Assembly (NCBI RefSeq): GCF_003258315.1 | Contig: NZ_CP030032.1 | Location: 782,001-846,000, forward strand | Direction of reading: 5' to 3' | Origin: Bradymonas sediminis | GTDB taxonomy: Bacteria; Myxococcota_A; Bradymonadia; Bradymonadales; Bradymonadaceae | DNA: 64,000 bases | Shown here: positions 12,261-49,324 of the stretch, in pieces | Layout: each line of letters opens with the position of its first letter | Position numbering within the stretch: the stretch's first letter is position 1 | The notes under the pieces: generated by a model | Told to the model about the DNA's origin: nothing | Databases searched by the model: none | What the model saw: only the letters and a program-made list of their open reading frames with translations | Program-made: the position numbers and the translations under genes

Positions 12261-12907
12261 TTCGCGTAAACCTATTGCCCATAAAGAAGGCACGCCGCCG
12301 CTCCGAAGGGCGCACCCAGATGGTCGTGTTCGTCGGGTTGCTGCTGCTTCAATGCGCGCTGATGGCTGTGGTCTATATGGACCTCAGCAGCCAGGTCGAC
12401 GACCTCAAGAAGGAAGTCGCCGTCAACCAGCGTGACGTCGCCGCCGCCGAGAAGGAGCTTGAGAGCGCCAAGGTGCTCGAAGCCAAGCAGGTCGAGCAGC
12501 AAAAGCAGGTCGATATCCTCAAGGAGCTCGAGGAGAAGCGCACCGGTCCGGTGCGCGTGCTCGACGAATTGCAGGCCGTCTTAAGCCCGCCGCGCAACGA
12601 GGCCGAGCGCCACGCACGCGCCCGCATGAATTGGAATGTCGAGTGGGATACCCGCCGACTGTGGGTCGAGAGCTGGGGCGAGGCCGACGGGACCTTTAAT
12701 ATGACCGGCAAGGCGCTCAACGCCGATGACGTCGCCGAGTACCTCGAGCGGCTCACCAGCGCGCGTTATTTCAGCAATATTCGGCTCAATTTTGTCAAGG
12801 CCGTCTCGGCCACCAAAGACAGCGTTGACCTGGTCGATTTTAGCATCACCGGCACGCTGTCATACCAGGATGAATCCGCTGAGGATGACGGAAAATCGGG
12901 CTCCTAA
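12257..12907 (+). CDS. pilN: Type IV pilus assembly protein PilN
   Basis: This bitopic inner-membrane protein has 216 residues. The cytoplasmic start MIRVNLLPIK is the conserved PilM-binding motif (INLLP type). A single membrane helix spans about residues 22-42, a periplasmic coiled coil about 45-95, and a ferredoxin-like domain the rest. It pairs with PilO. The ATGA overlap with pilM indicates coupled translation. The C-terminal 10 residues are acidic and probably disordered. Confidence 0.95.
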   Translation: MIRVNLLPIKKARRRSEGRTQMVVFVGLLLLQCALMAVVYMDLSSQVDDLKKEVAVNQRDVAAAEKELESAKVLEAKQVEQQKQVDILKELEEKRTGPVRVLDELQAVLSPPRNEAERHARARMNWNVEWDTRRLWVESWGEADGTFNMTGKALNADDVAEYLERLTSARYFSNIRLNFVKAVSATKDSVDLVDFSITGTLSYQDESAEDDGKSGS

Positions 12908-12984
12908 CGCGGCGCCCCTTATTCTTCGCGCTAACGGCTTTACTCTGGGTGCGCCGACCCAAGCATAGATGGGACTAAGAACTC

Positions 12985-13584
12985 ATGAACGACATTATTG
13001 ATAAATTTAATCAAATCCCCCTGGCTCAACGGGTCATCCTGTTGATCCTGACGATGGTGGCGTTGGGGGCGGCTTTCTGGTTCTTAGCCTATGAACCGAT
13101 GCAGTCCGATCTCAAGTCGAACCAGAGTCAGCTCCAGGAACTCAAGCACAAAAAGCAGGACCTCGCTCGCCTCAAAGAGAAGAAGGCGAGGATCCAGGCC
13201 AAGATCGCGTCGCTTGAGCAGGAATTGCTGATTGCCCGCGAGAAATTGCCTGAGTCGGCCGAGATTCCCAGCCTGCTTCAGCGCATTTACAACCAGGCCA
13301 ACACCGCCGGGTTGGACATCCGCACCTTTGAGCCCATGGAGCACCAGACCCAGAGCTATTATATCGAGATTCCCGTGAAGATGCAGTTGGTGGGAACCTA
13401 CGATGAGTTGGCCAACTTCTTTTATTATGTTGGCCGGATGACGCGTATCGTGAACGTGAAGAATCTGGACATTAAGCGCGAAAAATCCGGAATCAATGAG
13501 AATGGAAATCTGGTCGTGAGCGCTCAGGCCACCACCTTTCAGATGAATTCCGCCCCGGACGCCGGCGCAGCCAAGAAGAAGTAA
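12985..13584 (+). CDS. pilO: Type IV pilus assembly protein PilO
   Basis: The protein has 199 residues with a short cytoplasmic N-terminus, one membrane helix at about 16-33 (RVILLILTMVALGAAFWF), a coiled coil at about 40-90 rich in Lys, Gln and Glu, and a periplasmic ferredoxin-like domain containing YYIEIPVKMQLVGTYDEL. PilO and PilN heterodimerise and contact the PilP lipoprotein. A 77-base gap separates it from pilN, the largest gap in the operon. Confidence 0.95.
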   Translation: MNDIIDKFNQIPLAQRVILLILTMVALGAAFWFLAYEPMQSDLKSNQSQLQELKHKKQDLARLKEKKARIQAKIASLEQELLIAREKLPESAEIPSLLQRIYNQANTAGLDIRTFEPMEHQTQSYYIEIPVKMQLVGTYDELANFFYYVGRMTRIVNVKNLDIKREKSGINENGNLVVSAQATTFQMNSAPDAGAAKKK

Positions 13585-13655
13585 TTGCCGTGAGTATTCG
13601 GCCTGGCCGACATGGTGTCGCGCCGGTGAGTCCCAAGCGAATGGATTGAACGCCA

Positions 13656-14417
13656 ATGGATCGTAAGTCAATGGATTGCACGCAAAATAAAAGACGCACG
13701 TCCCCTCTCGACTCAGCCAGCAGGCTGCTCGTGCTCCTGGTGATCTTGAGCCTGGGCGCCGGCGGCTGCGGGTTTCTTGGGTTAGATGGTGGCGACACCC
13801 AGTCCGGGGACTCCCAGCAGGCCCAGGCGCCGGCGGTGAAACCGCCGCCCGCCGCCCCCGAGGCCCAGCTCGACGCGCCGGTCAAAGAGGAATACGAGCG
13901 CCCCGCTTATCCCGACCAGATCCGGCGCAACCCGTTTCTGCCCGAGATGGACGTGGTTCGCCCCACGCGCAACGTCGCCCGCGGCGAAGTGCGCCCCAAA
14001 GATCCCCTGGAGCAATACTCGCTCGGCCAGCTCAACCTGGTGGCGATCATCAGCTCGGTCGCGGTGCCCAAGGCGATGTTTTTGGACCCGGTCGGCTTCG
14101 GGCATGTTGTTAAGAAGGGTGACCGCATTGGACTCAGCGGCGGGATCGTCAGCGATATCCGCGACAACGAGGTCGAAATTCGCGAGGTCTCCGAGGGGCT
14201 CGACAGCGAAACCCGCTTGAGCACCATCAAACTCACCAGCGATCAATTGCGCGAGGACGATGACGAGTCGCTCAGCGATGAAGAGCGCGAGGCGCTGCGC
14301 CGACTGCTCGAGAGCGAGCAAGGCCGGCGCGTGCTCCAGGAGTCGTTGAACTCCGGGGCCGACGCCGCCCCGCAAGATGCAGACTCCATGGGAGCTGCGG
14401 GGCAGGGACGTCCATGA
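13656..14417 (+). CDS. pilP: Type IV pilus inner-membrane lipoprotein PilP
   Basis: PilP links the PilN-PilO platform to the PilQ secretin. The protein has 253 residues. A basic N-terminus and hydrophobic segment end in GAGGC, giving the lipidated Cys at residue 38. A Pro/Ala-rich linker follows to about residue 85. The conserved beta domain (about 85-195) includes RRNPFLPEM, LVAIISS, AMFLDPVGFGHVVKKGD and the family pattern VSDIRDNEVEIRE. The last 55 residues are acidic and helical and go beyond the usual family end. A second in-frame Met six residues in (13671) is an alternative start. The stop overlaps an ATG at 14414. Confidence 0.93.
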   Translation: MDRKSMDCTQNKRRTSPLDSASRLLVLLVILSLGAGGCGFLGLDGGDTQSGDSQQAQAPAVKPPPAAPEAQLDAPVKEEYERPAYPDQIRRNPFLPEMDVVRPTRNVARGEVRPKDPLEQYSLGQLNLVAIISSVAVPKAMFLDPVGFGHVVKKGDRIGLSGGIVSDIRDNEVEIREVSEGLDSETRLSTIKLTSDQLREDDDESLSDEEREALRRLLESEQGRRVLQESLNSGADAAPQDADSMGAAGQGRP

Positions 14418-14593
14418 AAGTTGATAGGAATAAAGATGTTAACGCCGACACCACGGCGCTGAATTCACTGGAAACGCTTCGAGCCGGAGCTAATAATACG
14501 ATGAAGCTGATGAACCAAAAGAACAGTTCCCCGCTGAAGCCCACGCGCCCTAATAGCCGGGTTGTCAGCTCATTGAGCGGCAGGAGTCACGCC

Positions 14594-17500
14594 ATGAGAC
14601 GCACTTTATCCGCCCTCTGTCTTTGCACCCTCGCCGGATTCGGTGGCTCGGTGTTGACCCCGACCACCGCCTTTGCGCAGGGCAGCGCCGCCACGAGCGT
14701 GAAATCCTCGGGTGCGCTGCAGGTCAGAGAGGCCGACGACGGCACGTATATTCGCCTGCGCGGCACCGGTGAGCCGACCTTCTCGGTCTTCAAGCTCACC
14801 AACCCGCTGCGACTCTTTGTGGACGTCTCCGGCTGGGAGCCCGCCTCGGGCGACAGCGCTTCGGCGGCGACCCAGAACGTGTCAAACGGCGTCATCTCCA
14901 AGGTCGCCCTGGTCGGCGTCGATGAGAATGCCCGCCCCATCACCCGTCTGATTATCGGGTTCGACGAGGCCGCGCATTATGACGTCAAGGCCGATGGCAA
15001 CGATATTGTGGTGTTCGTCGACGGCGCCAAGCGCCAGCAGGCGCCGCGTAATCTGGCGCAGGTTCAGCAGCGCACCAAGCAGCTCGAGGCCGAGCGCCAG
15101 GCCGCGCTCAAGCGCGCCGCAGAGCTCAGCAACGCGCTGGGTTCCGCGCGCAGCGAGCTCGACTCGGTCGCCCACGAAAAAGACCAGGTCAAGGCGCGTC
15201 TGGCCAAGATGGCCGCCGACGCCCAGCGCTCGGCCCAGAAGGTCGACACGCAGATCGCCAAGCTCGAGGCGGCGCAGAATCGCCAGCGCGAGCTGGAAAC
15301 CCAGATCGACAAATTGCGCGCCTCGCTTGCCCAGGGCAACGAGTCGGTGCGCAGCGAATTGGCCGAGTTCGAGAAGACCCGCGACCAGCTTAATAACAGG
15401 CTGAAGACGCAGCGCTCCGAATTGCAGGCTGCGCGCACCCAGGCCGATAAAGCCAACCAGCGCGTCGCCGAGATCCAGGCGCTCGTGAATCAGCGCGAGT
15501 CCGAAATCACGCGACTTCGCGCCGAATTGCAGCAGACCCGCGCGCGCCAAAAAGAAGTGGCCAAAGGCAACGAGAGCCTCGAGGCAGCGCGCAAGAAAAA
15601 CGCGCAGGAGCTCGCAAGCCTGCAGAAGTTGCGCCAGCAGCTCAAGGGCGAGCAGCAGCGCATGGCCGCGCTTGAGACCAAGCGTCAGGCCGAGCAGACC
15701 CGCCTGGCCGAGCTCGCCAGCGAGCGCCAGGCCGCCCAGCGCCAGCTCGCCGATACCGAGTCCCAGCTCGCCGAGCGCCGCCAGGAGCTCGAGGCGATTC
15801 GCAGCCGCGAGAACCTGCCGGCCGCCCGCGCCGTGGCGCTCAACGCCCAGGAAGCGAACTCGGTTCGCGATATCCGCCTCGAGACGGTCAACGGCCGCTC
15901 GCGCATCATCGTCGAGCTCAACCGCGCGTCCTCTTCCTTCGAGACGCTTCCGTCCAAGGACAGCCGCGCGGTCATGATTCTCAATAACGTGTCGCTGCCC
16001 GACGCCCTTGAGCGCACGCTGTCTAGCGACGCGCAGAGCGGCGCGGTGCGCCTGCTCTCCAGCTATACCGACCGCGAAGGAAACGTGCGCGTCGAAGCTG
16101 AGCTGGGCGGCAAGACCTCCGAGATCATCCGTCAGGATGGCAACCAGGTGGTCTGGGAATTCGCTCCGGAGATGACCGAGGAGCTCGCGCAGAACGCCCC
16201 GCAGAACACGGTACACCCCGGCGGCCAAGCTCGCCCGTCCACCCAGGGCACCAGCTTCACCTCGGCCCCGCCGAATTACCCGCGCACCGTCGCCGACCCG
16301 TCCAAGGTCAGCACCGTCCCGGGCATGAAGCGCAAGCGCCTGACCATTGACCTTCGCTCGGCCGACATCCAGAACGTGCTGCGCCTGCTGGCCAAAGAGG
16401 GCGGCGTCAACATCATCTCGGGCGACGGCGTCAAGGGCAGCGTGACGATGCGCCTGCGCAGCGTGCCGCTCGACCAGGTCTTTTTGACCGTGCTGAACTC
16501 CCAGGGGCTTGGCTTCGAGGTGCGCGGCAACGTCATCCGCGTCGCCCCGCAGGCCACGCTCTTGGCAGAGCAAAAAGCCCGCGCCGAGGCGCGCGCCAGC
16601 GCCCAGCAGCTCGAGCCGCTCGAGGTCTTTTTGATGCCGGTCAACTACGCCGCGGCCAGCGAGATGCAGCCGCAGGTCCAGGGACTGCTGAGCCCGCGCG
16701 GCTCGGTCACCGTCGACGCGCGTACCAACACCCTTATCATCAAGGACCTGGCCGCCAACCTGACCCCGATTCGTGCCCTGGTTGAGAGCCTCGACTCGCA
16801 GGTTCCGCAGGTGCTCATCGAGGCCCGCATCGTCGAGACCAACGACACCTTCACCCGTCAGTTGGGCATCCAGTGGGGCGGTGACTTCTCGTTCTCTCAA
16901 GGAAACGGTAACCCGACCGGGCTTATCTTCCCGAGCGTCCTGGGCGTCGCGGGTGGCGCAACCGACGGCGAGACCAACGCTACTGGCACCTCGTCGAACC
17001 CGAACTTCGCGGTCAACTTGCCCGCCCCGGCCGGTACCGGCTCCGGTGGTGCGATTGGTCTGACCATGGGCAGCGTCGGCGGCGCCGTGAACCTGAACCT
17101 GCGCCTGTCGGCCATGGAGGCCTCGGGCCACGCCAAAATCGTGAGCGCCCCGCGCATCCTGACCATGGATAATACCGAGGCGACCATCTCACAGGGCACC
17201 TCGATTCCGATCAGCGTGGTCAGCGCGGCCGGCGTCCAGACCGTCTTCGTCGACGCGACCCTGGAGCTCACCGTGACCCCGCACGTCACGCCCGACGGCA
17301 ACGTCCAGCTCAAGATTTCGGCCTCCAAAAACGAGCCCGACTTCCAGAACACCGGCGCCCGTGGTGACCCCACGATCATCCGTAAGCAAGCCGAGACCGA
17401 GCTGCTTATCAAAGATGGTGACACCACCGTGATCGGCGGTATCTACACCCGAAACTCTGGTTCAAGCCTGTCGGCGGTCCCCTTCTTGCACAAGATTCCG

Positions 17501-17638
17501 ATCCTCGGCGCGCTCTTCAAATCAACCTCGACCAGCGAGCGACGCACGGAGTTGTTGATCTTCATCACCCCGCGCATCGTCAATCGCCAGGAGTCGCTCG
17601 GAAGCAATCGTGCCGGCGGGTCAGTCGATATGGACTAA
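14594..17638 (+). CDS. pilQ: Type IV pilus secretin PilQ with long internal coiled coil
   Basis: PilQ forms the outer-membrane gate through which the pilus passes. ATG 14594 is chosen because caggag lies 7 bases upstream and a signal peptide begins there (MRRTLSALCLCTLAG, cleavage after AFA near residue 32). An ATG at 14414 overlapping pilP would add 60 polar residues before the signal peptide. From 14594 the protein has 1014 residues. In order: AMIN domain (about 40-140), a very long Glu/Gln/Ala/Arg coiled coil (about 150-409), a second AMIN domain (about 423-515), an STN-type N0 domain (582-650), secretin N1 (676-745) and the secretin barrel (about 750-1005) with VTPHVTPDGNVQLKI and VPFLHKIPILGALF. 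Most PilQ proteins have no coiled coil of this size, hence the large length. Confidence 0.95.
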   Translation: MRRTLSALCLCTLAGFGGSVLTPTTAFAQGSAATSVKSSGALQVREADDGTYIRLRGTGEPTFSVFKLTNPLRLFVDVSGWEPASGDSASAATQNVSNGVISKVALVGVDENARPITRLIIGFDEAAHYDVKADGNDIVVFVDGAKRQQAPRNLAQVQQRTKQLEAERQAALKRAAELSNALGSARSELDSVAHEKDQVKARLAKMAADAQRSAQKVDTQIAKLEAAQNRQRELETQIDKLRASLAQGNESVRSELAEFEKTRDQLNNRLKTQRSELQAARTQADKANQRVAEIQALVNQRESEITRLRAELQQTRARQKEVAKGNESLEAARKKNAQELASLQKLRQQLKGEQQRMAALETKRQAEQTRLAELASERQAAQRQLADTESQLAERRQELEAIRSRENLPAARAVALNAQEANSVRDIRLETVNGRSRIIVELNRASSSFETLPSKDSRAVMILNNVSLPDALERTLSSDAQSGAVRLLSSYTDREGNVRVEAELGGKTSEIIRQDGNQVVWEFAPEMTEELAQNAPQNTVHPGGQARPSTQGTSFTSAPPNYPRTVADPSKVSTVPGMKRKRLTIDLRSADIQNVLRLLAKEGGVNIISGDGVKGSVTMRLRSVPLDQVFLTVLNSQGLGFEVRGNVIRVAPQATLLAEQKARAEARASAQQLEPLEVFLMPVNYAAASEMQPQVQGLLSPRGSVTVDARTNTLIIKDLAANLTPIRALVESLDSQVPQVLIEARIVETNDTFTRQLGIQWGGDFSFSQGNGNPTGLIFPSVLGVAGGATDGETNATGTSSNPNFAVNLPAPAGTGSGGAIGLTMGSVGGAVNLNLRLSAMEASGHAKIVSAPRILTMDNTEATISQGTSIPISVVSAAGVQTVFVDATLELTVTPHVTPDGNVQLKISASKNEPDFQNTGARGDPTIIRKQAETELLIKDGDTTVIGGIYTRNSGSSLSAVPFLHKIPILGALFKSTSTSERRTELLIFITPRIVNRQESLGSNRAGGSVDMD

Positions 17639-21538: not shown

Positions 21539-24500
21539 TTACTTCATCGGGGCCAGCCGCAGAGGTCGCCCGAAGCTGTCGAGCATCGCGCCGCTTTCAA
21601 GGTCGAGGATAAGTCCCTGCGCGTGCGGCGCGCCTTCGAAGATGTTTCCGTTTGCGTCCATCCGGTAGGAGCCGCGCTCGGAGGCAAATGCGATGCCCTG
21701 GGCGGTCCAGAAGGGAGGATTCGGGCCGGCCGGGAAGACCTCGAGTCGCTCGGCCACCAGGCGGCCGGCGGTGGGCGTGTTCGCCTCGCTGCGCGCGACA
21801 TCGACCTGGTAGATGGCCGGGTCGCCGGTTTCGGTCGGCGCGGTATAGATAACCTGGCGGCCGTCGGGTGAGATGGCGGGGGACCAGGCGTTCTGGGTAA
21901 GAAGTTGGATCTCGCGCAAATTATCGTCGGCGAGCGTCAGGATATTGAGCTTGGATTGGTCGGCCAGGGCGCCGCGCATATACGCCAGGCAGCAGCCGTT
22001 CTCGGCCACCGCGATGCTAAAGCCCACGTCGCGGTCGAGCTCGACCTCGCCCGGGTTCTGCTTATTCTTCTCATCGAGGGTGACCAGCAGAAGGCGCGCG
22101 TCCGGGGTGCGCACGGCGACGCTCACGGGCTCGCCGTCGGCGCTGGGGATGAAGACCGCGTTGGTGAGCGGCGCGGCGCCAAGCGGCCAATCCACCACCT
22201 TCGCCTCGAAGCTCAGCTCCGCGATCATGCTCGGCGGCTGGTCGGATTGAGGAAGCAGGGGCAGCGGTTGCCCCCGCAGCTCCCACCCCCGGTAGACGGC
22301 GAGCAGGCGGGTGGACGTGAAGTCGAGCTTCGGCTCCTCGACGGGCGCGCTCGCGGGCATCTGGTCGGCGTGCGGGGCCGGGACATAGTCGAGGGCCTTG
22401 GCCGACTTATTCTGCGCCGGCACCGCTTCGCCTTCGGTCGAGGTGGCGGGCGAATCGCAACCCATCAGTCCCGCGCCCGCGAGGGGCATGACCAGCAGCA
22501 CGGCCATCATCGTAAGGCGCGTTTTTTGCAATTTATCGGCGGACGCCTTTCGGCGGCGCATCCAGAACAAACTCATCATCAATACTCCGGGCCACAAGGC
22601 GGTCGAAAGAGGCGAGGGCGGGTTGTCGGTGCTGGAGCACGCGCAGGAACTGCTCGACGCGCTATAAAGCGTGGAGTCGCGGTCGGAGTCTGTCACGTCG
22701 TTCTCCGCCATGCCGCCATCGGGGTTATCAGGGCCGGCGTCGCCGCCGGGCGTGTTATTATGGTCGTTTGGATCTTCTTCCTCGGGCGTCGTGACGCCCA
22801 TGCCAACCGTCGCGCTCGGGGAGGGACACGCGATCGGTTTGTCATTGGCGTTGAGCACGAAGAGGACTTCGTCGAAGGTCGCCGCGTCCGCCGGGACGCG
22901 CATCATAAAGGTGAGCGTGGCGATTTCGCCCGGAGCGACCGTCTCGCCGAGGACGGCCGGCGTCGTCGCGTCCTGCCAGCCGCTGGCCGGGCGCAACGCG
23001 TCGAGCGCGTCCGAGGTGTCCCCGACGGCTTGCAGCGCGATTTCTCCTGCGCTCCAGGTGTCGCGCCCCATATTCTCGAAGCGGACAACGGCTTCAACCT
23101 CGGTGCCGATATCGGCGTTCTCGGGGACCGTCGAGTCGACGAATTTCGCCGCGATGGCCGGCGGGACATGCCCCATTCGCGTAGGGGAACCCTCGTCAAT
23201 CTTGCCGTCGCAATCATCGTCGAAGCCGTTGCAGAGCTCGGCTCTGCACGTGCCCGAGCCCATGCGCATGGTGCTATAGTACTTCTCCGCATCCCAGCCA
23301 TTCGCGTTGCTAAACGCGTCAAGGGCGGCCACCGACGCGAAGCCATCATCGGTGGTGCGTCGGCACATCCAGCCCGCCGAGGCGCGCGCGCAGATATCGC
23401 GGCGGCGGTCCGGGTCGATATCGGTGACCGTCAGGGTCGAATAATAGCGCGCGCGCGACCAACCCGACGAGTCTTTCCACCGCGGCCCCGTAATCTTTGG
23501 GGTGCCGGGGCTAAAGCAGTCGACGCCCTCGACGCCACGCACGCAGACGTTCTCGGCGCCGTCGCCGTTGATGTCGCCCGCGCGGAACGTCGCGAAATGC
23601 TCAAGCGCGTCCAGGTCGAGCTCTGCGCTGGTGGCGAGCACCTCTTCTGGGGCAGCGAACCCGGTGGCGGTCGCCTTCATGCAGCGAAATCCACTGAAGA
23701 ATCGCGCACATACGTCGTCTTTTCCGTCGCCGTTATAGTCGAAGAGGCTCAGCGTGCTCCAGTACTTCATGTCCTTCCAGCCACCGTCGTTGGAGAAGTC
23801 CTCGACCAGCTTAAAGCGCTCAAAGGACGTTCCGGTGGAGGTATAGCAATCGAAGCCGGCGGCCCGGCGGATGCACACGTCCTGCTTGCCGTCGCCGTTG
23901 ATATCGCCGGTGCGAATGGTGCCGTAATACCAGGCGCGGTTGTAGCCACTTGCGTCGGTCCAGGCCGGGCCCGCGACGGTCTCGCCAAAGCCGGTGCCGG
24001 TCGAGAGCTGACAGCTCCAGCCATCGGGGCCGCGCGCGCAGACGTCGTCTTTGCCGTCGCCGTTGATATCGGTGAGGCGGAAGGTGGTGTAGTAGCCCGG
24101 ATCGGTCCAACCCTCGGCGTTGGTATACCCCGGGGCGTTGGCGTAGTGCTCGAAGCCATCGCCGGTGGAGCGCCAGCACTGATAGCCCTTGGTGGAGTGG
24201 CGCCCGCAGACGTCGGCGAGTCCGTCACCGTCGACGTCCCCGGTGCGAATGGTGGCATAGTAGCGGCGGCTGCCCCAGCCGCCGCCATCGGTCATTTGGC
24301 CCGAGGCGATCTTGTCGCCCCAGCCATTTCCGGTCGACAGGTAGCAGGTCCAGCCGTCGGGGCCGCGCCCGCACACGTCTTGGAGGCCGTCTCCGTTGAT
24401 ATCCGTGGTGCTCGCCGGGGCGTAGCGGTTGGGCGACTGCGCCAGGAACTCGTCTTCACAAACGTCGCCTTCGTCGACCTCGCCGTCGCAGTTATTGTCT

Positions 24501-25138
24501 TTGCCGTCGCATACTTCGGTGCTGGGCTCGCAGCCGCAGGACGTGCCAACCGGCTCGCGGTAGCCGTTTTGCTGGCGCCAGACGCCCGAGGAGTTGGTGC
24601 AGGAGCCGCGAAAGGTGTCGCGAAAGCCCGAGCCGCTCTGCCACTGCACGTGAAGATGCGGTCCGGTGGAGCTGCCCGAACTCGCCGACTGGCCGACTTT
24701 TTGCCCGCAGCTAACCCGCTGGCCCACCGAGACGGTCAGGGAGTTGCGCTTCATATGGCAATACATCGAGAATTGCCCGTCATCATGCGTGATTTTAACG
24801 TAATTTCCGCAGCGGCCACCGCAGGTGTTGCCGTAACTTCCATAGTCACCGCAACTGTTGTTGACCGCCGTGACGGTCCCGTCTTCGCCCGCCAGCAGGT
24901 TGGTCCCAACCGGCATCGCGAAGTCGGTGCCGCCGTGGCCATCATAGCAATGGCCACCGCAGTTATAATCGGTACACCCCGCGGATCCGTAGTTATTGTC
25001 GAAGCCGTAGTTGAATACGTAGCCTTCGGTATAGGGTCGGCGCAATTTCACCGCCTCGGCGGGGGAGGCCATCGCGAAGCCGAATAGCGTGAGCGCAAGA
25101 GTCAGGGCGACTATATTAAAAACTCTGGGCATCTTCAT
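21539..25138 (-). CDS. M23 metallopeptidase / VCBS-repeat surface protein fused in frame to a TolB-like lipoprotein
   Basis: The open frame has 1199 codons with no stop. Signal peptide 1-29. M23 peptidase domain at about 35-175 with zinc ligands H68 and D72 (GHGGTDF), H161/H163 (HLHVQW) and additional H128; it has many cysteines and should cut peptide cross-links or glycyl bonds. Next come two Cys-rich MopE-like metal-binding motifs (CDGKDNNCDGEVDEG and CNGFDDDCDGKIDEG) flanking about six VCBS/FG-GAP repeats containing DINGDGxxDVC. An NBR1-Ig-like beta domain and an Asn/Asp/Gly linker follow. SCACSS, a helix and MRRRK at about residue 860 resemble a MYXO-CTERM signal. From Met 877 (22510) the frame continues into a complete lipoprotein signal peptide (GLMGC) and about 300 residues with WD40/TolB-like segments such as SPAISPDGRQVIYTA. 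The two halves look like separate proteins. Confidence 0.85.
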   Translation of the reverse strand: MKMPRVFNIVALTLALTLFGFAMASPAEAVKLRRPYTEGYVFNYGFDNNYGSAGCTDYNCGGHCYDGHGGTDFAMPVGTNLLAGEDGTVTAVNNSCGDYGSYGNTCGGRCGNYVKITHDDGQFSMYCHMKRNSLTVSVGQRVSCGQKVGQSASSGSSTGPHLHVQWQSGSGFRDTFRGSCTNSSGVWRQQNGYREPVGTSCGCEPSTEVCDGKDNNCDGEVDEGDVCEDEFLAQSPNRYAPASTTDINGDGLQDVCGRGPDGWTCYLSTGNGWGDKIASGQMTDGGGWGSRRYYATIRTGDVDGDGLADVCGRHSTKGYQCWRSTGDGFEHYANAPGYTNAEGWTDPGYYTTFRLTDINGDGKDDVCARGPDGWSCQLSTGTGFGETVAGPAWTDASGYNRAWYYGTIRTGDINGDGKQDVCIRRAAGFDCYTSTGTSFERFKLVEDFSNDGGWKDMKYWSTLSLFDYNGDGKDDVCARFFSGFRCMKATATGFAAPEEVLATSAELDLDALEHFATFRAGDINGDGAENVCVRGVEGVDCFSPGTPKITGPRWKDSSGWSRARYYSTLTVTDIDPDRRRDICARASAGWMCRRTTDDGFASVAALDAFSNANGWDAEKYYSTMRMGSGTCRAELCNGFDDDCDGKIDEGSPTRMGHVPPAIAAKFVDSTVPENADIGTEVEAVVRFENMGRDTWSAGEIALQAVGDTSDALDALRPASGWQDATTPAVLGETVAPGEIATLTFMMRVPADAATFDEVLFVLNANDKPIACPSPSATVGMGVTTPEEEDPNDHNNTPGGDAGPDNPDGGMAENDVTDSDRDSTLYSASSSSCACSSTDNPPSPLSTALWPGVLMMSLFWMRRRKASADKLQKTRLTMMAVLLVMPLAGAGLMGCDSPATSTEGEAVPAQNKSAKALDYVPAPHADQMPASAPVEEPKLDFTSTRLLAVYRGWELRGQPLPLLPQSDQPPSMIAELSFEAKVVDWPLGAAPLTNAVFIPSADGEPVSVAVRTPDARLLLVTLDEKNKQNPGEVELDRDVGFSIAVAENGCCLAYMRGALADQSKLNILTLADDNLREIQLLTQNAWSPAISPDGRQVIYTAPTETGDPAIYQVDVARSEANTPTAGRLVAERLEVFPAGPNPPFWTAQGIAFASERGSYRMDANGNIFEGAPHAQGLILDLESGAMLDSFGRPLRLAPMK

Positions 25139-38980: not shown

Positions 38981-39883
38981 TCACGGCGCAGCGCCCAGAA
39001 CTTGCCGACCGTTGCGCATCACCAACAAAATAAGCCCCAACACGATCAGGATGGCCCCGGTCGGCGGCTCCTGCTCGCCGGCGCCGGTGTTGCACCCGGA
39101 GCGGCGCAGCCCGAGGTCCGCCTCGCTGGGGAACTCACTGGCGCGCAGGCATTGCGGCGGCTCTTCTGCGCGCAGCGGGTAGGTCGCGCACAGCCCGTTG
39201 ATATCGTCGGGGTGCAGCGCGCGCTTGCTCGTCTCGCCGACCGGCGCGGTGCTATACATCGTGGCGTTTCGGAGGTCCGAGTGGTCCAGGCCGATAAAAT
39301 GCCCCACCTCGTGGGTCAGCGTATTGCGCAGGTCGACGTGGTTGGCCCGCGGGATATTGCCCGCCGAATAATTATAGAGCTCGGTATTAACCTGGATATC
39401 GGCGTCGGCGATGATCCCGTTTCGCGGGTTATAGGTGACGCTGGTCAGGGCGAATGCCTTGGCGGTTGCCAGTTCGTCCCAGTCCTTATCGCGCCACATC
39501 ACAAGGTTGGTGTTGCGGGAGTCGCCGGCGCGAAATGTCGAGTCTTTTTGGGTGGTTAGGCCGCCGTCGACCAGCGTCATGTCGCTGCACTCGACGTCGG
39601 TCCATGCCTGAAAGGAGAGCGCCACCGCCCGGCGAACTTCGGCCAGCGCGGCTTCGTCATTGGACCCGCCCGCCACGCTCTCCAGCGCATCTTCGTTAAT
39701 GTGATAGAGCACACAACGCGCGCTCCATCGCAGCGGCTTGGGTGTCTGGTCCTCGGCGCAGCGATGCTCCGATCCCTCCAGATTACACGTCATCGTGTGG
39801 CGAAACGCCTGGGCGTCGCTGGTATGAAAGAGCACCAGCGCCGCGGCCGCGGCAAAGACCATCCCCCCAAATATTTGCTTCAC
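38981..39883 (-). CDS. Secreted matrixin-type metalloprotease with C-terminal anchor
   Basis: The protein has 300 residues. The signal peptide ends around SDAQA (residue 26). The catalytic motif HEVGHFIGLDH at 191-201 is a complete metzincin site (H191, E192, H195, H201), and ATMYS at about 207-211 supplies the Met-turn. Paired cysteines in the N-terminal part (C33, C42, C57, C99) suggest disulfides. The C-terminus holds Cys, a Pro/Glu linker, a hydrophobic helix (AILIVLGLILLVM) and Arg-rich residues, resembling a Cys-dependent sorting or anchoring signal. It should degrade external or periplasmic protein, which fits a predatory lifestyle. No prodomain Cys switch is seen. Confidence 0.9.
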   Translation of the reverse strand: MKQIFGGMVFAAAAALVLFHTSDAQAFRHTMTCNLEGSEHRCAEDQTPKPLRWSARCVLYHINEDALESVAGGSNDEAALAEVRRAVALSFQAWTDVECSDMTLVDGGLTTQKDSTFRAGDSRNTNLVMWRDKDWDELATAKAFALTSVTYNPRNGIIADADIQVNTELYNYSAGNIPRANHVDLRNTLTHEVGHFIGLDHSDLRNATMYSTAPVGETSKRALHPDDINGLCATYPLRAEEPPQCLRASEFPSEADLGLRRSGCNTGAGEQEPPTGAILIVLGLILLVMRNGRQVLGAAP

Positions 39884-40743: not shown

Positions 40744-42432
40744 TCACCGTCGTTGCATCTTCAAATAGTCGATCAATCGGTACTGAAATTCAATAGCGTC
40801 CCGGTTTTGCTCCGTCGGCGGCGTGACTTCGCTGTGGCCGAGCGTGCGGTTGCGGAAGAATCCATCCTGGAGAAAGACCACCAACTCACCGTTGTCGATC
40901 TTTTTTCGCCGCGCAATTTCGACGCGCTTGATGCCGTTTGATTCAGGAGCACCGGATGTGCTCGCCATCGCGCTCACGAAAGATGAGCCCCAGGTGGAAG
41001 ATATATCCAAAAGGTACGGAGGCAAATCCCCGCTCGGGTTCTGCGCGGGCCGGCGCATCATCGACAGCTTAAGCCCCTTGACCTCGAGCACCTCGGATTC
41101 GATGGGGTGGCTCCCCGCAATCTTCGCGATGTCCAGGTCGGTCAGTTCGCCTTCAGGCGTCGTCACAAATTCCAGGTCTTCGTCGCCCACCCGCAGCGAG
41201 AAGTCCGGCGCAAGCTCCGCCAAAAGCGCGATGGTCGCCGGGGAAATCGCGTCCGCCTCGAAGCTCAGCACCACCGTCTTTCCCTGCTTAAAAAAGCTGC
41301 GAATCCGCCGGATCGCCGCGGCGTCATAGGCCATGGTCGGGTTCATGATAAACAGCGCTTCATCGTCGGTGTCGACCCCGAGGCGTGCGCGCGCGGTCAC
41401 CAGATGGTCGCGGTTGAAGTTGACGTAGAACGGATAGAAGTCTTCAGCCTTGCCCCCGCCCAGGTTGAACTCATTGCGCGACATATCCAGCCCGATATTA
41501 TACCCGCTCGGGCGAGCCGCGCGCAGCGGCGCTTCGCCGTCCCGCCCGGCCAGCCATTGAAAGCTATTCATCATCAGGTCGAAGTTGTCGGCGAAATACA
41601 GCCACGCGTCCCCGAAGATATTCTGGTCGCCGACCACCACCACGCGCCCGTCGCCGTAATCGGCCGCCGACACCATCGCCAGCGGGCCGCGTGGCTCAAT
41701 CGACTCGTCGCCGTCGAAGCGCCAATTGCCATAAAACCCGCCGGTATCCGTTTCGTCCCAATAATCCCCGTAGCTCTGTTTGCTGGTCCAGGCCACCCCG
41801 TGCTCGCCAAGAATCGGCCCGCCGGTCTGCGGGCTGATCATGTCGACCCCGCGGGTGACAAAATGCGGGTCAAAATCCCACAGCATCAGCCAGGCCTTGC
41901 CGTTGACCGCGTACTCCGGCGGCTCGTCGACCGTGGTATGATACCCCATCTCCATGCCCATCGGCGCCAGCAGCGGGTTGATGCGCTCCGAGCTGCGATA
42001 GACGTTGGTGTGGTCGCCGATGACGAAAAGCCCGCCGCCCTCGCGCACCCATTGCTGAATCGCCGCGTACTCCTGCTGGCTAAAATTCGGCCGCTTCGAG
42101 TCCACCAGGTTGATAAAGAGAATATCAAACCCCTTGAGCCGCTCCGCCGACAGCGGCATATCGCGAATCGAGCGCACCTTATACCCGTGGTCGATCAGGT
42201 GCTCAAAAGCCCGGTAAAAGCCGTACACCCCCTGGTAATTATAGTCCCATTTGCCCAGGCGATAGTCCTCATGATTCTGCAGGCGCGTGTGGTAGAGGTC
42301 GACCAAAATCCACGGCCCATCGCCCTCCGGCGGCGCGTAGCTCTCCTCATCGAAGATGCCACAGCCAACGAGGCTTAGCCCCAAGAGGACGATCAACAGG
42401 CCGCGCGAGAGGCGTCGAAGACGGTAATTCAT
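40744..42432 (-). CDS. Large lipoprotein with glutamine-amidotransferase-like fold
   Basis: The protein has 562 residues from ATG 42432. The signal peptide ends in SLVGC with the lipidated Cys at residue 24. Residues 45-260 resemble the class I amidotransferase-like fold of GldG/DUF4350 and ThuA-type proteins: FDILFINLVDSKRPN, WVREGGGLFVIGDHTN, and GDGRVVVVGDQNIFGD. The nucleophile Cys of true amidotransferases is not present at the elbow, so it is probably a binding protein rather than an enzyme. GldG-like proteins couple to ABC transporters, but no transporter gene is adjacent. The C-terminal 200 residues contain a second alpha/beta part. Confidence 0.7.
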   Translation of the reverse strand: MNYRLRRLSRGLLIVLLGLSLVGCGIFDEESYAPPEGDGPWILVDLYHTRLQNHEDYRLGKWDYNYQGVYGFYRAFEHLIDHGYKVRSIRDMPLSAERLKGFDILFINLVDSKRPNFSQQEYAAIQQWVREGGGLFVIGDHTNVYRSSERINPLLAPMGMEMGYHTTVDEPPEYAVNGKAWLMLWDFDPHFVTRGVDMISPQTGGPILGEHGVAWTSKQSYGDYWDETDTGGFYGNWRFDGDESIEPRGPLAMVSAADYGDGRVVVVGDQNIFGDAWLYFADNFDLMMNSFQWLAGRDGEAPLRAARPSGYNIGLDMSRNEFNLGGGKAEDFYPFYVNFNRDHLVTARARLGVDTDDEALFIMNPTMAYDAAAIRRIRSFFKQGKTVVLSFEADAISPATIALLAELAPDFSLRVGDEDLEFVTTPEGELTDLDIAKIAGSHPIESEVLEVKGLKLSMMRRPAQNPSGDLPPYLLDISSTWGSSFVSAMASTSGAPESNGIKRVEIARRKKIDNGELVVFLQDGFFRNRTLGHSEVTPPTEQNRDAIEFQYRLIDYLKMQRR

Positions 42433-42487
42433 GATATGTTTCTTAGGGTGCATTAAAGATGAGGAGGAGCCGTGGGCGATGCTCTGA

Positions 42488-43234: not shown

Positions 43235-44692
43235 ATGTCGACTTCAACTCCGCGCACACAGCCCCTCGTGATGACGCGCATGATGACCGCAACGCTCATC
43301 ACGAGTCTCTGCTTGGTGACGAGTTGCGCGCTCTGGGACGCCGCAAACCCTTCCTCCGACGGGGGCGACGACGCGCCGGACGCCGTGTCATTGGACACCG
43401 GCGCCGACGGCATCGACATCGACATCGCTGATGCCTCCCAGGCGGAGGACGTAGCGCAGGCATCGGACTGTCAGGTGGGCGACGGCCTGGGGGTTCTCGA
43501 GGTGGATCGGGGTAGGGTCACGCCTCAATTCCAAGCACGAGCCGCCTTTGACGGCGCAGGCATCTGGGTGGTCTATGTTCGAACCTCCGCGCAGTCTCCC
43601 GAGGGGTCCATCGAGCAGGCGCGCGACATTATCGCGACCCGAATCTCGTGCGCAGGCGAGGTCCTCGTCGCACCCTTTGCGGTCAACGAAAATCCCATCC
43701 ACGTCGAGAGTCCGACACCGTCGATCGACGTTAAACGCGACACGGTTTATCTGGCGTGGAACTCGAAATCTGCCTGGTCCTCTCCCGCGCACCAGATTTA
43801 TTTTCGCACCCTGAGCGTCGGCGGCGACGCGTTGATGCCGGCCGAAAGGCTGGTCAACTTTAACGGCAGCACCCCCAACGCGCGGGTGTCCGACAGTGTT
43901 ACCGAGTCCGATATCGTGGCGCTAAATCAGGGAGGGGCGCTGGTCGTGGGCTCAACGTTTGATATGGCCGAGCGGCGCGTGTTTTTTCAGCGCCTCGATG
44001 ATCTCGGCGAGTCGGTGGGGCCGGCGGTGCCCGTCGATTTAGCGTCGGACTCCTTCCAGACGCGCCCGGCGATCAGCGTTGATCCCAGCGACCATGTCTG
44101 GGTCTCCTGGCAAAGCTTAAGCTATGGTCAGGACAGCTACGGACCTAATTATACCGCGTATCGTAGCTTCGATATCGACGCCCCCGAGGCGCCGAGCGCG
44201 GTCGAGCTTTTGCAGATATCATCACCCAAGGACCGAAGAGCTCGCATCTCCAGGCAAATTCCGCACGCCGAGTCTGTGTATTTGGCATCGGTCACGGACG
44301 AATACGGGTCCCATCGCATCGCGTTGCTTAACGCGGCGACGGACACCGACTACCTGCTGCTCGGCCAGGAGGCCGTGACCAATGACTACCCCGCGGTGGT
44401 TTCCTGGGGCGGCGGCGGCGCCGTGGCCTGGTTCGTGCGAGATATTCGCTCGGAGGAGCTCGACGAAAAAGTGCTTTTACTTCAACCCTTTCGGCCCGAC
44501 GGTGCCCATATTCAAGTTGGGGCGCCGGTTGAGGTCGCTGTCCTGAGAACCGATGTAATCAACGGTGAGCATCGCGGTGGCCCGGACATCGTTCATCTGG
44601 GCCAGGACGACTATTTTGTGCTGTGGCACGAAGGCAGTGATGCCCGCAAATCGAAAGTCAGAGGGCGCTTCGTCAAGGCCCGGGTTGACTGA
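43235..44692 (+). CDS. Array lipoprotein 1 (CALWDAA family)
   Basis: The protein has 485 residues from ATG 43235. The signal peptide ends in LVTSC with the lipidated Cys at residue 31, followed by ALWDAA and an Asp-rich linker to about residue 78. The body has a Cys near residue 79 and another in ATRISC, probably a disulfide. Repeated beta-propeller-like strands follow (AAFDGAGIWVVYVRT, PSIDVKRDTVYLAWNS, AISVDPSDHVWVSWQS and GGGGAVAWFVRD), and the end is KVRGRFVKARVD. These resemble BNR/sialidase-like or YncE-like propeller blades, but no catalytic residues are evident. The Ala after the lipid Cys suggests outer-membrane targeting. It is first in a tandem array of four paralogues; function unknown. 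Confidence 0.75.
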   Translation: MSTSTPRTQPLVMTRMMTATLITSLCLVTSCALWDAANPSSDGGDDAPDAVSLDTGADGIDIDIADASQAEDVAQASDCQVGDGLGVLEVDRGRVTPQFQARAAFDGAGIWVVYVRTSAQSPEGSIEQARDIIATRISCAGEVLVAPFAVNENPIHVESPTPSIDVKRDTVYLAWNSKSAWSSPAHQIYFRTLSVGGDALMPAERLVNFNGSTPNARVSDSVTESDIVALNQGGALVVGSTFDMAERRVFFQRLDDLGESVGPAVPVDLASDSFQTRPAISVDPSDHVWVSWQSLSYGQDSYGPNYTAYRSFDIDAPEAPSAVELLQISSPKDRRARISRQIPHAESVYLASVTDEYGSHRIALLNAATDTDYLLLGQEAVTNDYPAVVSWGGGGAVAWFVRDIRSEELDEKVLLLQPFRPDGAHIQVGAPVEVAVLRTDVINGEHRGGPDIVHLGQDDYFVLWHEGSDARKSKVRGRFVKARVD

Positions 44693-44743
44693 GCGCCCAT
44701 CCTTCGTCGACGATTTAGTGAGCACCCAGCAGAGACAACAAAG

Positions 44744-46219
44744 ATGAACTCCTCCCATCGGGCGAATCGCCCCACCCGCCAAGCGCTGCTCGGTCAACTA
44801 TGCCTGGTCGCCGCGCTGATCTTGTTCCCCGGCTGTGCCCTGTGGGACGCCGCGAATGGCTCCGATGATGATCCGGCAGATGCGAGCGATGTTGCTCAGT
44901 TCGACACCCTCGCCGCCGACGCAGATAGCCGCGACGCCGATGAGCCCGAAGTTGTCGAGGCTGACGCCACCGACGATGTCGGCGCGGATACAGCGGAGGA
45001 GCCCCACGCGTTTAAGAGCTGCTTGAGTACGGAGGCTGTCTACCCTCTCGAGGTGGGCGCTCCCAAGCCCCAATTTCACCCCCGCGTGGCTTTCGACGGC
45101 CACGCGATCTGGGTGGTCTACGCACGCGGTAGCGCGTTGGATGCGACCGCACTCGAGATTTTCGCGACTCGTATTACCTGTGACTCCGGGTTCCTTGCCG
45201 AGACCTGGCAGGTCAGCACCTTGCCGATTCTCGAAGTGGATCCCGTGCCCTCCATTGATATCGTCGGCGGAACGGTTCATATGGTGTGGCATAGTGATGT
45301 GGACACCGGGGCGGCCGACCGCTCCAAGGTGGCCTATCGTAGCTTTGGGGTCGATGGCGAGCCGAAGATGGATGCCGAGGTCTATGTCGACTTTGTCGTG
45401 CCAGGGGGAGGCGCTGGTGCTTTCCATGACTTCTACACTGCCGATATCGTTGGCCTCTCAGAGGGCGAGGCCCTCATCGCGGCGGTGTCCGACGATAATA
45501 TTGGCGAGATGAGGGTCGTCTTGCAGAAAGTTAGCCACCTGGGCGAAGCTCGCGGCCAGGCCGTGGCGGTGCCGTCGACCAGCAACGCGATTCAACTTCG
45601 GCCCAGCGTCGCGGCCTCCGCCAGCGGCCCGATATGGGCGGCGTGGCTGGAAGCCGCGACCGATGGTTTAAGCGGATATCTGATAAAGAGCAGCGCCTTC
45701 GACCGCAGCACCCTTGGCGCGACAGAGCAGCCGATGACCTCCAATAGCCGGGCGTCCATCCAGGTCGGGCCCAGACACGTCAATGGAGTACTGGAGGACG
45801 AGTCGGTGTATTTTGTCCAACAAACCGATGCATTGGCAGGCCGCCTCTACAGCGCCAATCGCGCCGGGGATGTCAGCGCTTTTGGATCCGATGATGCGAA
45901 TAATATCTTCCCGTCGCTCGCCTCACATGGCCGTGGCGGCGCGGTCGCCTGGTTCAGCCGTACCAATACCGACCCGGACCAACAGCGCCAGCTGATGGTG
46001 CAGACTTTTCGCGACTCGGGGAGCGTGACTACCATGGGGGTGGCCCAGGCAATCGCGCGCGTCGACGCGCCTTTAACCAAAAAATTGCCCGGAGGGCCCG
46101 AGATCATTTCGATCGGCGGGCACTATTATTTCGTCGTGGCCCAGGACGGTGGGACGACGAGCTCCACAGCGCTTAAAGGTCGCTTCGTTAAGCTGCCGGC
46201 GCAGGCGGACGCCGACTAA
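44744..46219 (+). CDS. Array lipoprotein 2 (CALWDAA family)
   Basis: The protein has 491 residues. The lipobox is LFPGC with Cys at residue 31, then ALWDAA and an Asp/Ala linker that is longer than in the other copies. The core shows the same blocks as copy 1: PQFHPRVAFDGHAIWVVYA, ATRITC, PSIDIVGGTVHMVWHS, GRGGAVAWFSRT and PGGPEIISIGGHYYFVVAQD, ending with LKGRFVK. The gap from copy 1 is 51 bases, so the two are probably cotranscribed. Divergence from copy 1 is considerable in the middle of the protein, which argues against a very recent duplication. Confidence 0.75.
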   Translation: MNSSHRANRPTRQALLGQLCLVAALILFPGCALWDAANGSDDDPADASDVAQFDTLAADADSRDADEPEVVEADATDDVGADTAEEPHAFKSCLSTEAVYPLEVGAPKPQFHPRVAFDGHAIWVVYARGSALDATALEIFATRITCDSGFLAETWQVSTLPILEVDPVPSIDIVGGTVHMVWHSDVDTGAADRSKVAYRSFGVDGEPKMDAEVYVDFVVPGGGAGAFHDFYTADIVGLSEGEALIAAVSDDNIGEMRVVLQKVSHLGEARGQAVAVPSTSNAIQLRPSVAASASGPIWAAWLEAATDGLSGYLIKSSAFDRSTLGATEQPMTSNSRASIQVGPRHVNGVLEDESVYFVQQTDALAGRLYSANRAGDVSAFGSDDANNIFPSLASHGRGGAVAWFSRTNTDPDQQRQLMVQTFRDSGSVTTMGVAQAIARVDAPLTKKLPGGPEIISIGGHYYFVVAQDGGTTSSTALKGRFVKLPAQADAD

Positions 46220-46327
46220 GCGTCGCATCATCATCGCATATTTTTGCTGTCATCGAATTTACTGATTTCACGTCTGCGCGGTTCAACCATCTGCGTCGAC
46301 GTACTCCTTATTCCCGAATACTTCCGC

Positions 46328-47746
46328 ATGATATCGCCACGACCTACGCACCATCTCCCGCGCGCCATCTTCCGTCTCCGAGCTCCGGTTGTTGCGCTGG
46401 CGTTTCTTTGCTCCAGCTGCGCCCTATGGGACGCCGCGAGTGGCCCTTCTGATGACACGGGCGACGCCGCCGATATTTCTGACTTCGATATTGGCAGGGC
46501 CGACGTCGCCGCTGACGCCGACGTCGAGCCTGCGGACGTCCTTGACGGCGAGGATGGCGCGACGCTGGGTGGGCCTTTCGATGATTGCCTGCGGGACGCG
46601 TCTGGATTTGCTCTCAACCTTGCCGGCTTGAAGCCGCAATACCAACCCCGCGTCGCTTTCGACGGCACTGCAATCTGGGCGGTGTACACCCAACAGCGGA
46701 GCCCAGCAGGTGATACCGAATTCGATATTATCGCGACGCGTATCACCTGCGAGGACGGTGAGCTGAAAAGAGCATCGTACCCGCTTAACCAGGATGTTCT
46801 TACGGCCGACTTTCCTTCTCCATCGATCGACATTGCAGGCACCACTGTTCATGTTGTTTGGAGCAATGCCGACGACGTCGTGATGAACCAGGGGCAGGTG
46901 GCGTATCGGCGCCTCCATATCGACGGCTCGTCGTTGATGGACGCCGAGACGTTCGTTGACTTTCGGCTCGAGGGAGCCGCGCTGACCCATTTTGGCTATC
47001 CAGAAATTGTCGCTCTTCCCGGCGAAGAGGCCATCATTACGGCGGTCGCGGGGTTTAACACAATCGTATTGCAACAAGTCGAGGGGGATGGGGAAATTGT
47101 CGAAGACGCAGTCGAGGTGAATACCGATGCTTCGGCCCTGCGAACTCGGCCCAGTATCGCCGCCGGCGCCACCGGACCGGTCTGGCTGGCGTGGTTGGAG
47201 CCGAAGGCATTGGGCAGTTCGCAATACCGAGTTGGCTATGCCTCATTTGAGCGCAGCAATTTTGAACCCACGGGGCAGCCAGCTACCGTAGATACCTTGT
47301 CGATTCGAAGAGGGGGGCCGCGATTCGCCCGGGGCATTTTTAATGAGGAGCACGTGTTTTTCGTCGAGCAATCCAATACGTATCGGACGCGACTCTATAA
47401 TGCGACCCGGCATGGGACCTCCACTGAGTTTGGCGCGGAAGATACGACTAATTCTAATCCATCGGTCACTTCCATGGGCGCTCGCGGCGCGGTGGCTTGG
47501 TTTAGCCGGGAGGACGCGTCTTCTCTGGGGAGGCAAGTTAATATTCAATCATTTCATGACAGCCAAAATCGCATCGATATGGGCGCCCATAAGACCATCG
47601 CGACGGTAGACGGGCCGGCGGTTCCCCAACTCCCCGGGCGTCCCGAGATTGTCTGGGTTGGCGGCGATACATATTTCGTCGCCGTGCAGGATGGCCCCAC
47701 AGCGTCTTCAACGGAGGTTAGGGGGTATTTGGTTCAGTTGGACTAA
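46328..47746 (+). CDS. Array lipoprotein 3 (CALWDAA family)
   Basis: The protein has 472 residues from ATG 46328. An earlier in-frame start at 46244 is rejected because 46328 places the lipobox (LCSSC) Cys at residue 31, as in the other three copies. The core blocks are PQYQPRVAFDGTAIWAVYTQ, ATRITC, PSIDIAGTTVHVVWSN, GARGAVAWFSREDA and PGRPEIVWVGGDTYFVAVQD. Codon use shows somewhat more AT-ending codons than in copies 1 and 2 (for example around 47340-47560). Confidence 0.75.
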   Translation: MISPRPTHHLPRAIFRLRAPVVALAFLCSSCALWDAASGPSDDTGDAADISDFDIGRADVAADADVEPADVLDGEDGATLGGPFDDCLRDASGFALNLAGLKPQYQPRVAFDGTAIWAVYTQQRSPAGDTEFDIIATRITCEDGELKRASYPLNQDVLTADFPSPSIDIAGTTVHVVWSNADDVVMNQGQVAYRRLHIDGSSLMDAETFVDFRLEGAALTHFGYPEIVALPGEEAIITAVAGFNTIVLQQVEGDGEIVEDAVEVNTDASALRTRPSIAAGATGPVWLAWLEPKALGSSQYRVGYASFERSNFEPTGQPATVDTLSIRRGGPRFARGIFNEEHVFFVEQSNTYRTRLYNATRHGTSTEFGAEDTTNSNPSVTSMGARGAVAWFSREDASSLGRQVNIQSFHDSQNRIDMGAHKTIATVDGPAVPQLPGRPEIVWVGGDTYFVAVQDGPTASSTEVRGYLVQLD

Positions 47747-47863
47747 TTGCTTGAGTATGCCTTTACATCAGGGGGGCTTGCGGCCATAGAATAAGCGGCT
47801 CACGACGCAACGACGGGGGAGCCTGCCTGCCTCGAAGATTTCATTTTAAGCGGTGACTACAGT

Positions 47864-49324
47864 ATGATGCGACAAATATTTGCGCTAGACCTCACCGGCG
47901 CTACCGACCTATTTCGGTTGCCGGTCATCGCCCTGGCGATGCTCTTGTCGAGCTGCGCGCTGCTAGACGCCGCCGGGAATTCCTTCGACGATCCGGGTGA
48001 TAACTCCGAGCTCGACGCTGCCGGCGACGACGCTGGGCCCACGCCCGATATCACCGAGGAGCGCAGCGCCTTTGCGGACTGTGTCGAGCTGAACCGTGAC
48101 ATCGACATCGATCCGACCGGTATGGGGCAGCGGTATCAACCGCGTGTTGCGTTTGACGGCAACGCGATCTGGGTCGTCTTCACGCAAGCGGACCCGAATG
48201 CCGCAAACCAATACAATATTATCGCGTCGCGCGTCGCTTGCGGGACCGTTGAGACCGGCAGGGTCGACACGGTCACCATCAAAGTGAACACCGCGCCGAT
48301 CCCGGTGAACTCTCCGGCTCCGTCGATCGATATTCAGGGTGAGACCGTGCATATCGTCTGGAATACCGAGCTGAGCGCGGGCAGTACCGCTCACAGTCGA
48401 GTGGCGTATCGCGCCTACAATTTGGCAGAGTCCAGGTGGTATGCGCAGCAAGAATCCTTCGTGAAATTCCACCTGCCTGGCAGCACTGAGCCCATCGATG
48501 CTCTGGGCTCAGGCACCACCGATATTCATTTTTATGACGCAGATATTATCGCCCCGCCCACCGGCGAAGCGATCATAACCGCGGTCAAGGATGTGGTTGG
48601 CCAAGATAGTACACATATTGTCTTCCAAAAGCTCAGCACCAACGGAATCGTCAAAGATCAGGCGAGCGTGGTGCCTGCGGGGCCCGACTCCACCCAATAC
48701 AAGCCGAGCCTCACGCTCGACGCCTCAGGCCGTGTTTGGATCGCTGCATTTGAGTTTTTGTCGTCCACCAACGAGGACTTTTTGGTGTACTCATCCTTTG
48801 CCCCACAACAGCTGCAGCCCGAAGAAACCCGGCGACTTCCAGCGGACCCATCGCGCGGAATGGGGCCGGTCTTCTCCAAGGATATCCGCGGCGAAGACAG
48901 TGTTTTTCTTGCCTACCAGGCCACTGAGTTTGAGACGAACCTGCTCAATGCCGCGGAATCCTCCGAGAGCATCACGCTCGGCGCGTCGACATCGGTGAGC
49001 TTCTACCCCGCCCTTAGCTCCATCGCCGGGCGTGGGGCGGTCGCCTGGTTTCAAGTGGACGACACCGCTGTAGTGGAGCAGCGTTCTCTAAATATTCAAT
49101 CATTTCGCCAGCACGCCACCGGCCTAAAGCTTGGTGAGCCGGAACAGGTCGTCGAAATCGACTCCGTCGCTGCGGCGCAACTTCCGGGAGGGCCTGGACT
49201 CGTGGCGCTCGGCGGAGACTATTATTTCGCTGTGTATCAGAATGGGCCGGTTGGCGAGCTGACATCGGTCGAGTCGACCTCGCTGAACGGGCGTTTTGTC
49301 AAGGTTTCGCCGCCCGCCGAGTGA
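47864..49324 (+). CDS. Array lipoprotein 4 (CALWDAA family)
   Basis: The protein has 486 residues. The lipobox is LLSSC with Cys at residue 31, then ALLDAAG (Leu replaces the Trp of the other copies). The core blocks are QRYQPRVAFDGNAIWVVFTQ, ASRVAC, PSIDIQGETVHIVWNT, GRGAVAWFQVDD and LPGGPGLVALGGDYYFAVYQ, ending with LNGRFVKVSPP. It closes the array, and a strong bidirectional terminator follows. ATG 47864 is doubled (Met-Met). The ligand or partner is unknown. Confidence 0.75.
   Translation: MMRQIFALDLTGATDLFRLPVIALAMLLSSCALLDAAGNSFDDPGDNSELDAAGDDAGPTPDITEERSAFADCVELNRDIDIDPTGMGQRYQPRVAFDGNAIWVVFTQADPNAANQYNIIASRVACGTVETGRVDTVTIKVNTAPIPVNSPAPSIDIQGETVHIVWNTELSAGSTAHSRVAYRAYNLAESRWYAQQESFVKFHLPGSTEPIDALGSGTTDIHFYDADIIAPPTGEAIITAVKDVVGQDSTHIVFQKLSTNGIVKDQASVVPAGPDSTQYKPSLTLDASGRVWIAAFEFLSSTNEDFLVYSSFAPQQLQPEETRRLPADPSRGMGPVFSKDIRGEDSVFLAYQATEFETNLLNAAESSESITLGASTSVSFYPALSSIAGRGAVAWFQVDDTAVVEQRSLNIQSFRQHATGLKLGEPEQVVEIDSVAAAQLPGGPGLVALGGDYYFAVYQNGPVGELTSVESTSLNGRFVKVSPPAE

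Follow-up and report, generated by a model that had tools for sequence, protein, structure and literature searches.

Computation on sequences and predicted structures places four intact, homologous genes side by side in Bradymonas sediminis, all encoding lipoproteins with a seven-bladed beta-propeller fold and all belonging to a single clade. The reading that we favour, at a probability of about one half, is that an envelope lipoprotein present as one copy in other Myxococcota was quadrupled in tandem long ago; it would be a tethered, non-enzymatic binding propeller whose copies have probably specialised. Each protein would be exported by Sec and then lipidated on its cysteine, and an acidic, disordered tether of ~40-60 residues would hold the propeller off the membrane. 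An N-terminal strand would close the propeller ring, which one disulfide probably holds together, and the disc would serve as a non-enzymatic binding module touching a ligand or partner with its variable loops, with each of the four paralogues probably dedicated to different partners.

The array lies in a window (the whole stretch of DNA that was analysed, 64,000 nucleotides long) covering positions 782001-846000 of the single 5,045,683-bp contig of B. sediminis, the type species of the order Bradymonadales, whose genomes measure 5.0-8.0 Mb (PMC7460792). Its four codirectional open reading frames (ORFs), all on the plus strand, are copy 1 (43235..44692, 485 aa), copy 2 (44744..46219, 491 aa), copy 3 (46328..47746, 472 aa) and copy 4 (47864..49324, 486 aa), separated by gaps of 51, 108 and 117 bp. 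Copies 1 and 2 are predicted seven-bladed propellers by modelling, and copies 3 and 4 carry the propeller domain by sequence. Pairwise identity among the four is 29-43%, copy 3 being nearest to copy 2 (~43%), and the tblastn E values between them (~1e-41 to 1e-99) are far beyond chance; together with the intact ORFs, these values confirm the four-gene array of paralogous lipoproteins proposed in an initial annotation of this DNA. A cNMP-binding gene upstream and an RNase R-like gene downstream flank the array on the opposite strand, and farther away, also on the opposite strand, lie genes for a DUF4350 protein, a matrixin-like M10 peptidase (38981-39883, upstream) and a CoA-transferase. None of these neighbours provided a functional link, synteny of the array surroundings was not conserved between the window and the relatives, and neither the window nor the relatives' loci revealed a ligand, partner or conserved neighbour gene. 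There were no Rfam matches to RNA elements, and promoter and terminator signals were no higher than in shuffled sequence. Elsewhere in the window, a type IV pilus assembly cluster (11199-17638, plus strand) comprises PilM, PilP and an AMIN-containing secretin, and a 1199-aa protein (21539-25138, minus strand) combines an M23 peptidase with FG-GAP repeats and a MopE-type metal-binding motif.

Two candidate explanations were considered and rejected. A mobile or phage origin was dismissed, with no relatives found on plasmids or viral contigs. A role in fatty-acid uptake came into view because five relatives have FadL/OmpP1 and alpha/beta-hydrolase genes close to their single-copy homologue; it was discarded as weak, given that in two genomes (G004 and G005) the best hydrolase match lies elsewhere and that the intervening genes run on the opposite strand, and the genome of the window has neither this hydrolase nor FadL near the array.

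The N-termini of the four copies, like those of their relatives, consist of a hydrophobic stretch followed by a (T/P/S)(S/G)C lipobox. Signal peptide, lipobox and cysteine, i.e. the sequence marks of a bacterial lipoprotein, are present in every copy, which makes lipidation on this cysteine very probable. The initial annotation had placed the lipobox Cys invariantly at residue 31. That holds in all four copies for the starts it chose, and copies 2 and 3 each offer a single candidate ATG; copy 1, however, has extra in-frame ATGs at 43271, 43280 and 43283 (moving the Cys to residue 19, 16 or 15) and copy 4 has one at 47867, so the identical numbering is partly a matter of start choice. From the lipid Cys onwards, copies 1-3 read CALWDAA (43325..43345, 44834..44854 and 46418..46438) and copy 4 reads CALLDAA (47954..47974). 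An acidic linker follows in copy 1 (43346..43468, disordered, pLDDT <50), copy 2 (44855..45019, disordered, pLDDT mostly <50), copy 3 (46439..46585) and copy 4 (47975..48079), with 14-19 Asp/Glu within mature residues 2-55. Every mature protein contains exactly three cysteines, namely the lipid Cys and one conserved pair (mature residues 49/109 in copy 1, 63/116 in copy 2, 57/111 in copy 3 and 43/96 in copy 4). The Asp-rich linker, the Cys pair and the blade-like sequence blocks named by the initial annotation were all recovered in the four copies, copy 1 carrying the block variants AAFDGAGIWVVY, PSIDVKRDTVYLAW and GGPDIVHLGQDDYF.

A propeller had been suspected from these blocks, and structure prediction of the mature protein returned exactly that. 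AlphaFold2, run on copy 2 and copy 1 with nine sequences, gave a pTM of 0.81 for either copy, with a disordered linker and, judged by strand order, seven blades in both models. In copy 2 the propeller (45065..46216, mature 78-461) is made of seven four-strand blades, the last of which is closed by an N-terminal strand (mature 69-71) that serves as its fourth. Foldseek searches of the PDB returned 537 matches at E <= 0.001 for copy 2 and 415 for copy 1 (best E 3.5e-9 and 9.9e-9, respectively); among the matches listed, nearly all of the top ones are propellers, with identities of 7-13%. In addition, when the family profiles of blades 2, 4 and 6 are scored on one another, the average exceeds the 95th percentile of shuffled decoys. 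Of the conserved Cys pair, the first lies ahead of the closing strand and the second at the end of the third strand of blade 1 (the segment from one to the other, comprising the closing strand and blade 1, is 43469..43651 in copy 1 and 45020..45181 in copy 2), so that a disulfide at this place would staple the ring; one such bond per protein, formed by the conserved pair, is very likely. The middle region, already described as diverged, is indeed where the domain has diverged most, with a mean identity of 0.26-0.33 in blades 3-5 versus 0.39-0.45 in blades 1, 2 and 7.

What could such a disc be doing? The top Foldseek matches include carbohydrate-active propellers, specifically the polysaccharide lyases PL27 (7esl) and PL24 (6byp), the glycoside hydrolase BT3686 (5muk) and sialidases, and copy 2 has a sub-threshold Pfam match to GH43 (E 0.0058). 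These would be the expected traces of surface enzymes acting on glycans (hydrolase-, sialidase- or lyase-like propellers), each copy cutting a different one, yet we consider this quite unlikely. The structural matches share no more than the low identity given above and extend to many unrelated propellers; the GH43 match reaches 16.5 bits against a cut-off of 32.2 and covers 89 residues, and such sub-threshold GH43 matches were all that the comparison with curated GH43 and polysaccharide lyase families gave. Moreover, what the 19 family members share invariantly in the propeller region is limited to two Cys, one Gly, three Trp and one Pro; acidic residues, His, Arg and Tyr, the types on which catalysis by GH43 enzymes or polysaccharide lyases would depend, are all absent from this set. 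As these invariant residues are structural only, they favour a binding or scaffold role over an enzyme, and the alignment thus argues for a tethered propeller disc with a binding or scaffold function, even if missing invariant polar residues are no proof against an enzyme, since active sites can differ between subfamilies. Among the four copies, the most variable elements are the B-C loops, at an identity of 0.17 and a gap mismatch of 0.16, and the outer strand d (0.18), whereas strands a-c are retained (0.40-0.50); loops were assigned to propeller faces from strand order, not coordinates. Outside the array the corresponding values for the B-C loops are 0.18 and 0.09, and loop variability, which is common in many proteins, is by itself no proof of specialisation. 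The individual copies may perhaps bind separate ligands.

Among 237 sampled Myxococcota genomes, searched with a family profile of 19 rows and at most seven candidates scored per genome, the family occurs in 34, of which 33 have one full copy and B. sediminis has four; a class-level survey with deeper scoring gave the same copy numbers for full-length members. A contig profile search with the four copies alone as the query returned no matches, whereas the wider alignment recovered five named loci, and relatives include Lujinxingia vulgaris and a Lujinxingiaceae metagenome-assembled genome (MAG). Neither the four copies nor the family profile match any Pfam or NCBIfam entry over its cut-off, and a PDB sequence search with the profile gave only a chance antibody match (E 0.75). 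In two genomes, G040 and G048, up to 17 matches per genome are spread over many contigs (e.g. L023, L025, L033, L034). They are proteins of ~840-1,260 aa in which a putatively metallophosphoesterase-like N-terminal domain with GNHDY-type motifs precedes propeller-like repeats, and they represent a separate large expansion.

The single-copy, Myxococcota-wide pattern resembles that of an envelope part, and BamB is a propeller lipoprotein that acts as an envelope scaffold. Could the family be an internal scaffold of this kind, i.e. a periplasm-facing outer-membrane lipoprotein with the four copies as alternative subunits? We regard this as rather doubtful. The PQQ-type eight-bladed repeats of BamB are not seen here, there being no PQQ/BamB match in Pfam and seven modelled blades in copy 2; presence in only 34 of 237 genomes implies that the family is not generally essential; and, to our knowledge, BamB has no long acidic linker. 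The tethered binding propeller remains our preferred reading, and the array itself is a local event. The four copies form one clade with support 100/100 and the branching order (1,(4,(2,3))), copy 1 being the deepest branch, which together with the single copies elsewhere bears out the local expansion that had been proposed. Substitution rates between the copies (NG86) amount to dN 0.56-0.81 and dS 1.7-2.4; the dN/dS comparison could be computed, but it is uninformative as a selection test because dS is saturated. Saturation in combination with four intact copies nevertheless indicates that the duplications are old, and on sequence grounds we take the array to stem from a quadruplication that is old and confined to this lineage, with its copies held under constraint. 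In L. vulgaris, a 75-aa C-terminal remnant (G018:C55:31057-31278; L041 7755-7979) sits near the intact family copy; it shares ~95% identity with the intact family members from its genus and is a partial tandem duplication. It documents that duplicates arise and decay, as they would if the array were neutral or surface-variation baggage, with chance or a decoy function explaining why duplicates persist, and without distinct ligands. Four frames that are still intact at this dN and saturated dS would, however, need long purifying selection on each copy, and this makes the baggage reading very unlikely.

The sequence following the lipid Cys behaves differently from the rest of the family. CALWDAA had been taken as a family mark, a view that did not survive: CAL(W/L)DAA is missing from the single-copy relatives examined, and its more general form is present on ten unrelated lipoproteins of the same genome. 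The family profile, searched against its own genome, matches three lipoproteins only N-terminally, a DNA pattern for CALxDA finds eleven lipoproteins in 18 matches, and profile searches enlarge the set to fourteen. The ten carriers outside the array (G000:C1 455302, 926460, 1336353, 1355610, 2430472, 2431823, 2518187, 3631710, 4037991 and 4945289) have CA(L/I)xD(A/G) after the lipid Cys and bear RCC1 repeats, DUF285 or other domains. At least five architectures are represented among the fourteen: the array propeller (four), RCC1 repeats (six), DUF285 (one) and three others that are mutually dissimilar and have no Pfam match above cut-off. The motif codons differ at synonymous sites, which speaks against recent DNA copying. 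In a sample of lipoproteins drawn from twenty 20-kb stretches of each genome, CA(L/I)xD(A/G) was found in 0/38 of this genome (outside the window) and in 0/27 of a relative; by a rough calculation with independent positions, chance would give 0.02 in ~480. Beyond this genome, only three motif-profile matches reach 1e-4 in the 237 genomes searched; they belong to two genera of the same family and are lipoproteins with acidic linkers too. Since all fourteen rows of the motif profile come from this genome, its own-genome matches are not independent, and the independent evidence consists of the DNA pattern search and the foreign matches. It is conceivable, and we put this forward tentatively, that Bradymonadia use CA(L/I)xD(A/G) as a signal for lipoprotein sorting or surface export, serving a small, mostly beta-propeller set; the array would then be the largest block within a set dedicated to export; alternatively, the motif may have been dispersed via N-terminal shuffling. 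The DUF4350 gene upstream of the array (40744-42453, minus strand) also encodes a predicted lipoprotein, which reads CGIFDEES from its lipid Cys and is loosely motif-like.

What is the significance of these features? They define an unnamed, mostly single-copy propeller lipoprotein family of Myxococcota, and one genome with four old paralogues is a clear natural experiment. Lipoprotein targeting in the predatory Bradymonadia is apparently unstudied, as far as our literature search reached, and the post-lipid motif offers a directly testable candidate sorting signal. It is this shared N-terminal motif, rather than the array itself, that is the most novel part.

How do these proteins compare with known systems? 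The NCBIfam entry NF053835 (PDIAV motif-containing lipoprotein) shows a weak profile similarity to 7/19 members (best E 3.6e-5), far below its 90-bit cut-off, and its profile has no match at E <= 0.001 in the genome of the window. In Myxococcus xanthus, sorting of FibA to the extracellular matrix (ECM) needs Ala at +7, and lipoproteins of the inner membrane are recognised by a Lys at +2 (PMC3222651). The array proteins have Ala at +2, thereby matching the inner-membrane signal of neither E. coli (Asp) nor M. xanthus (Lys), and all four copies have Ala at +7, as do a few other sampled lipoproteins; the wider motif class, by contrast, keeps +2, +3, +5 and +6 and has Ala at +7 in only 6/14. If the M. 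xanthus rule may be carried over to Bradymonadia, both alanines count for an outer-membrane or surface placement, which the array proteins may perhaps have. The lipoprotein export signal (LES) of Bacteroidetes, K-(D/E)2 or Q-A-(D/E)2 after the lipid Cys (PMC5080379), is likewise a short acidic motif right after this residue and common to lipoproteins with unrelated domains; the putative signal CA(L/I)xD(A/G) differs in having one Asp and neither Lys nor Gln, and in being restricted to a small lipoprotein subset. The closest working analogue is BtuG, a seven-bladed surface lipoprotein of Bacteroides that captures vitamin B12 (BtuG2 being PDB 3DSM) (PMC6143338). The family profile finds no PDB sequence match that would make the two homologous, the Bacteroidetes-type LES is missing from the array proteins, and, in place of a btuB/TonB receptor gene, the array has cNMP-binding, DUF4350, RNase R-like and CoA-transferase neighbours. 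What the two have in common is a seven-bladed disc, a lipid anchor, a short signal (putative in the array) after the lipid Cys and several homologues per genome.
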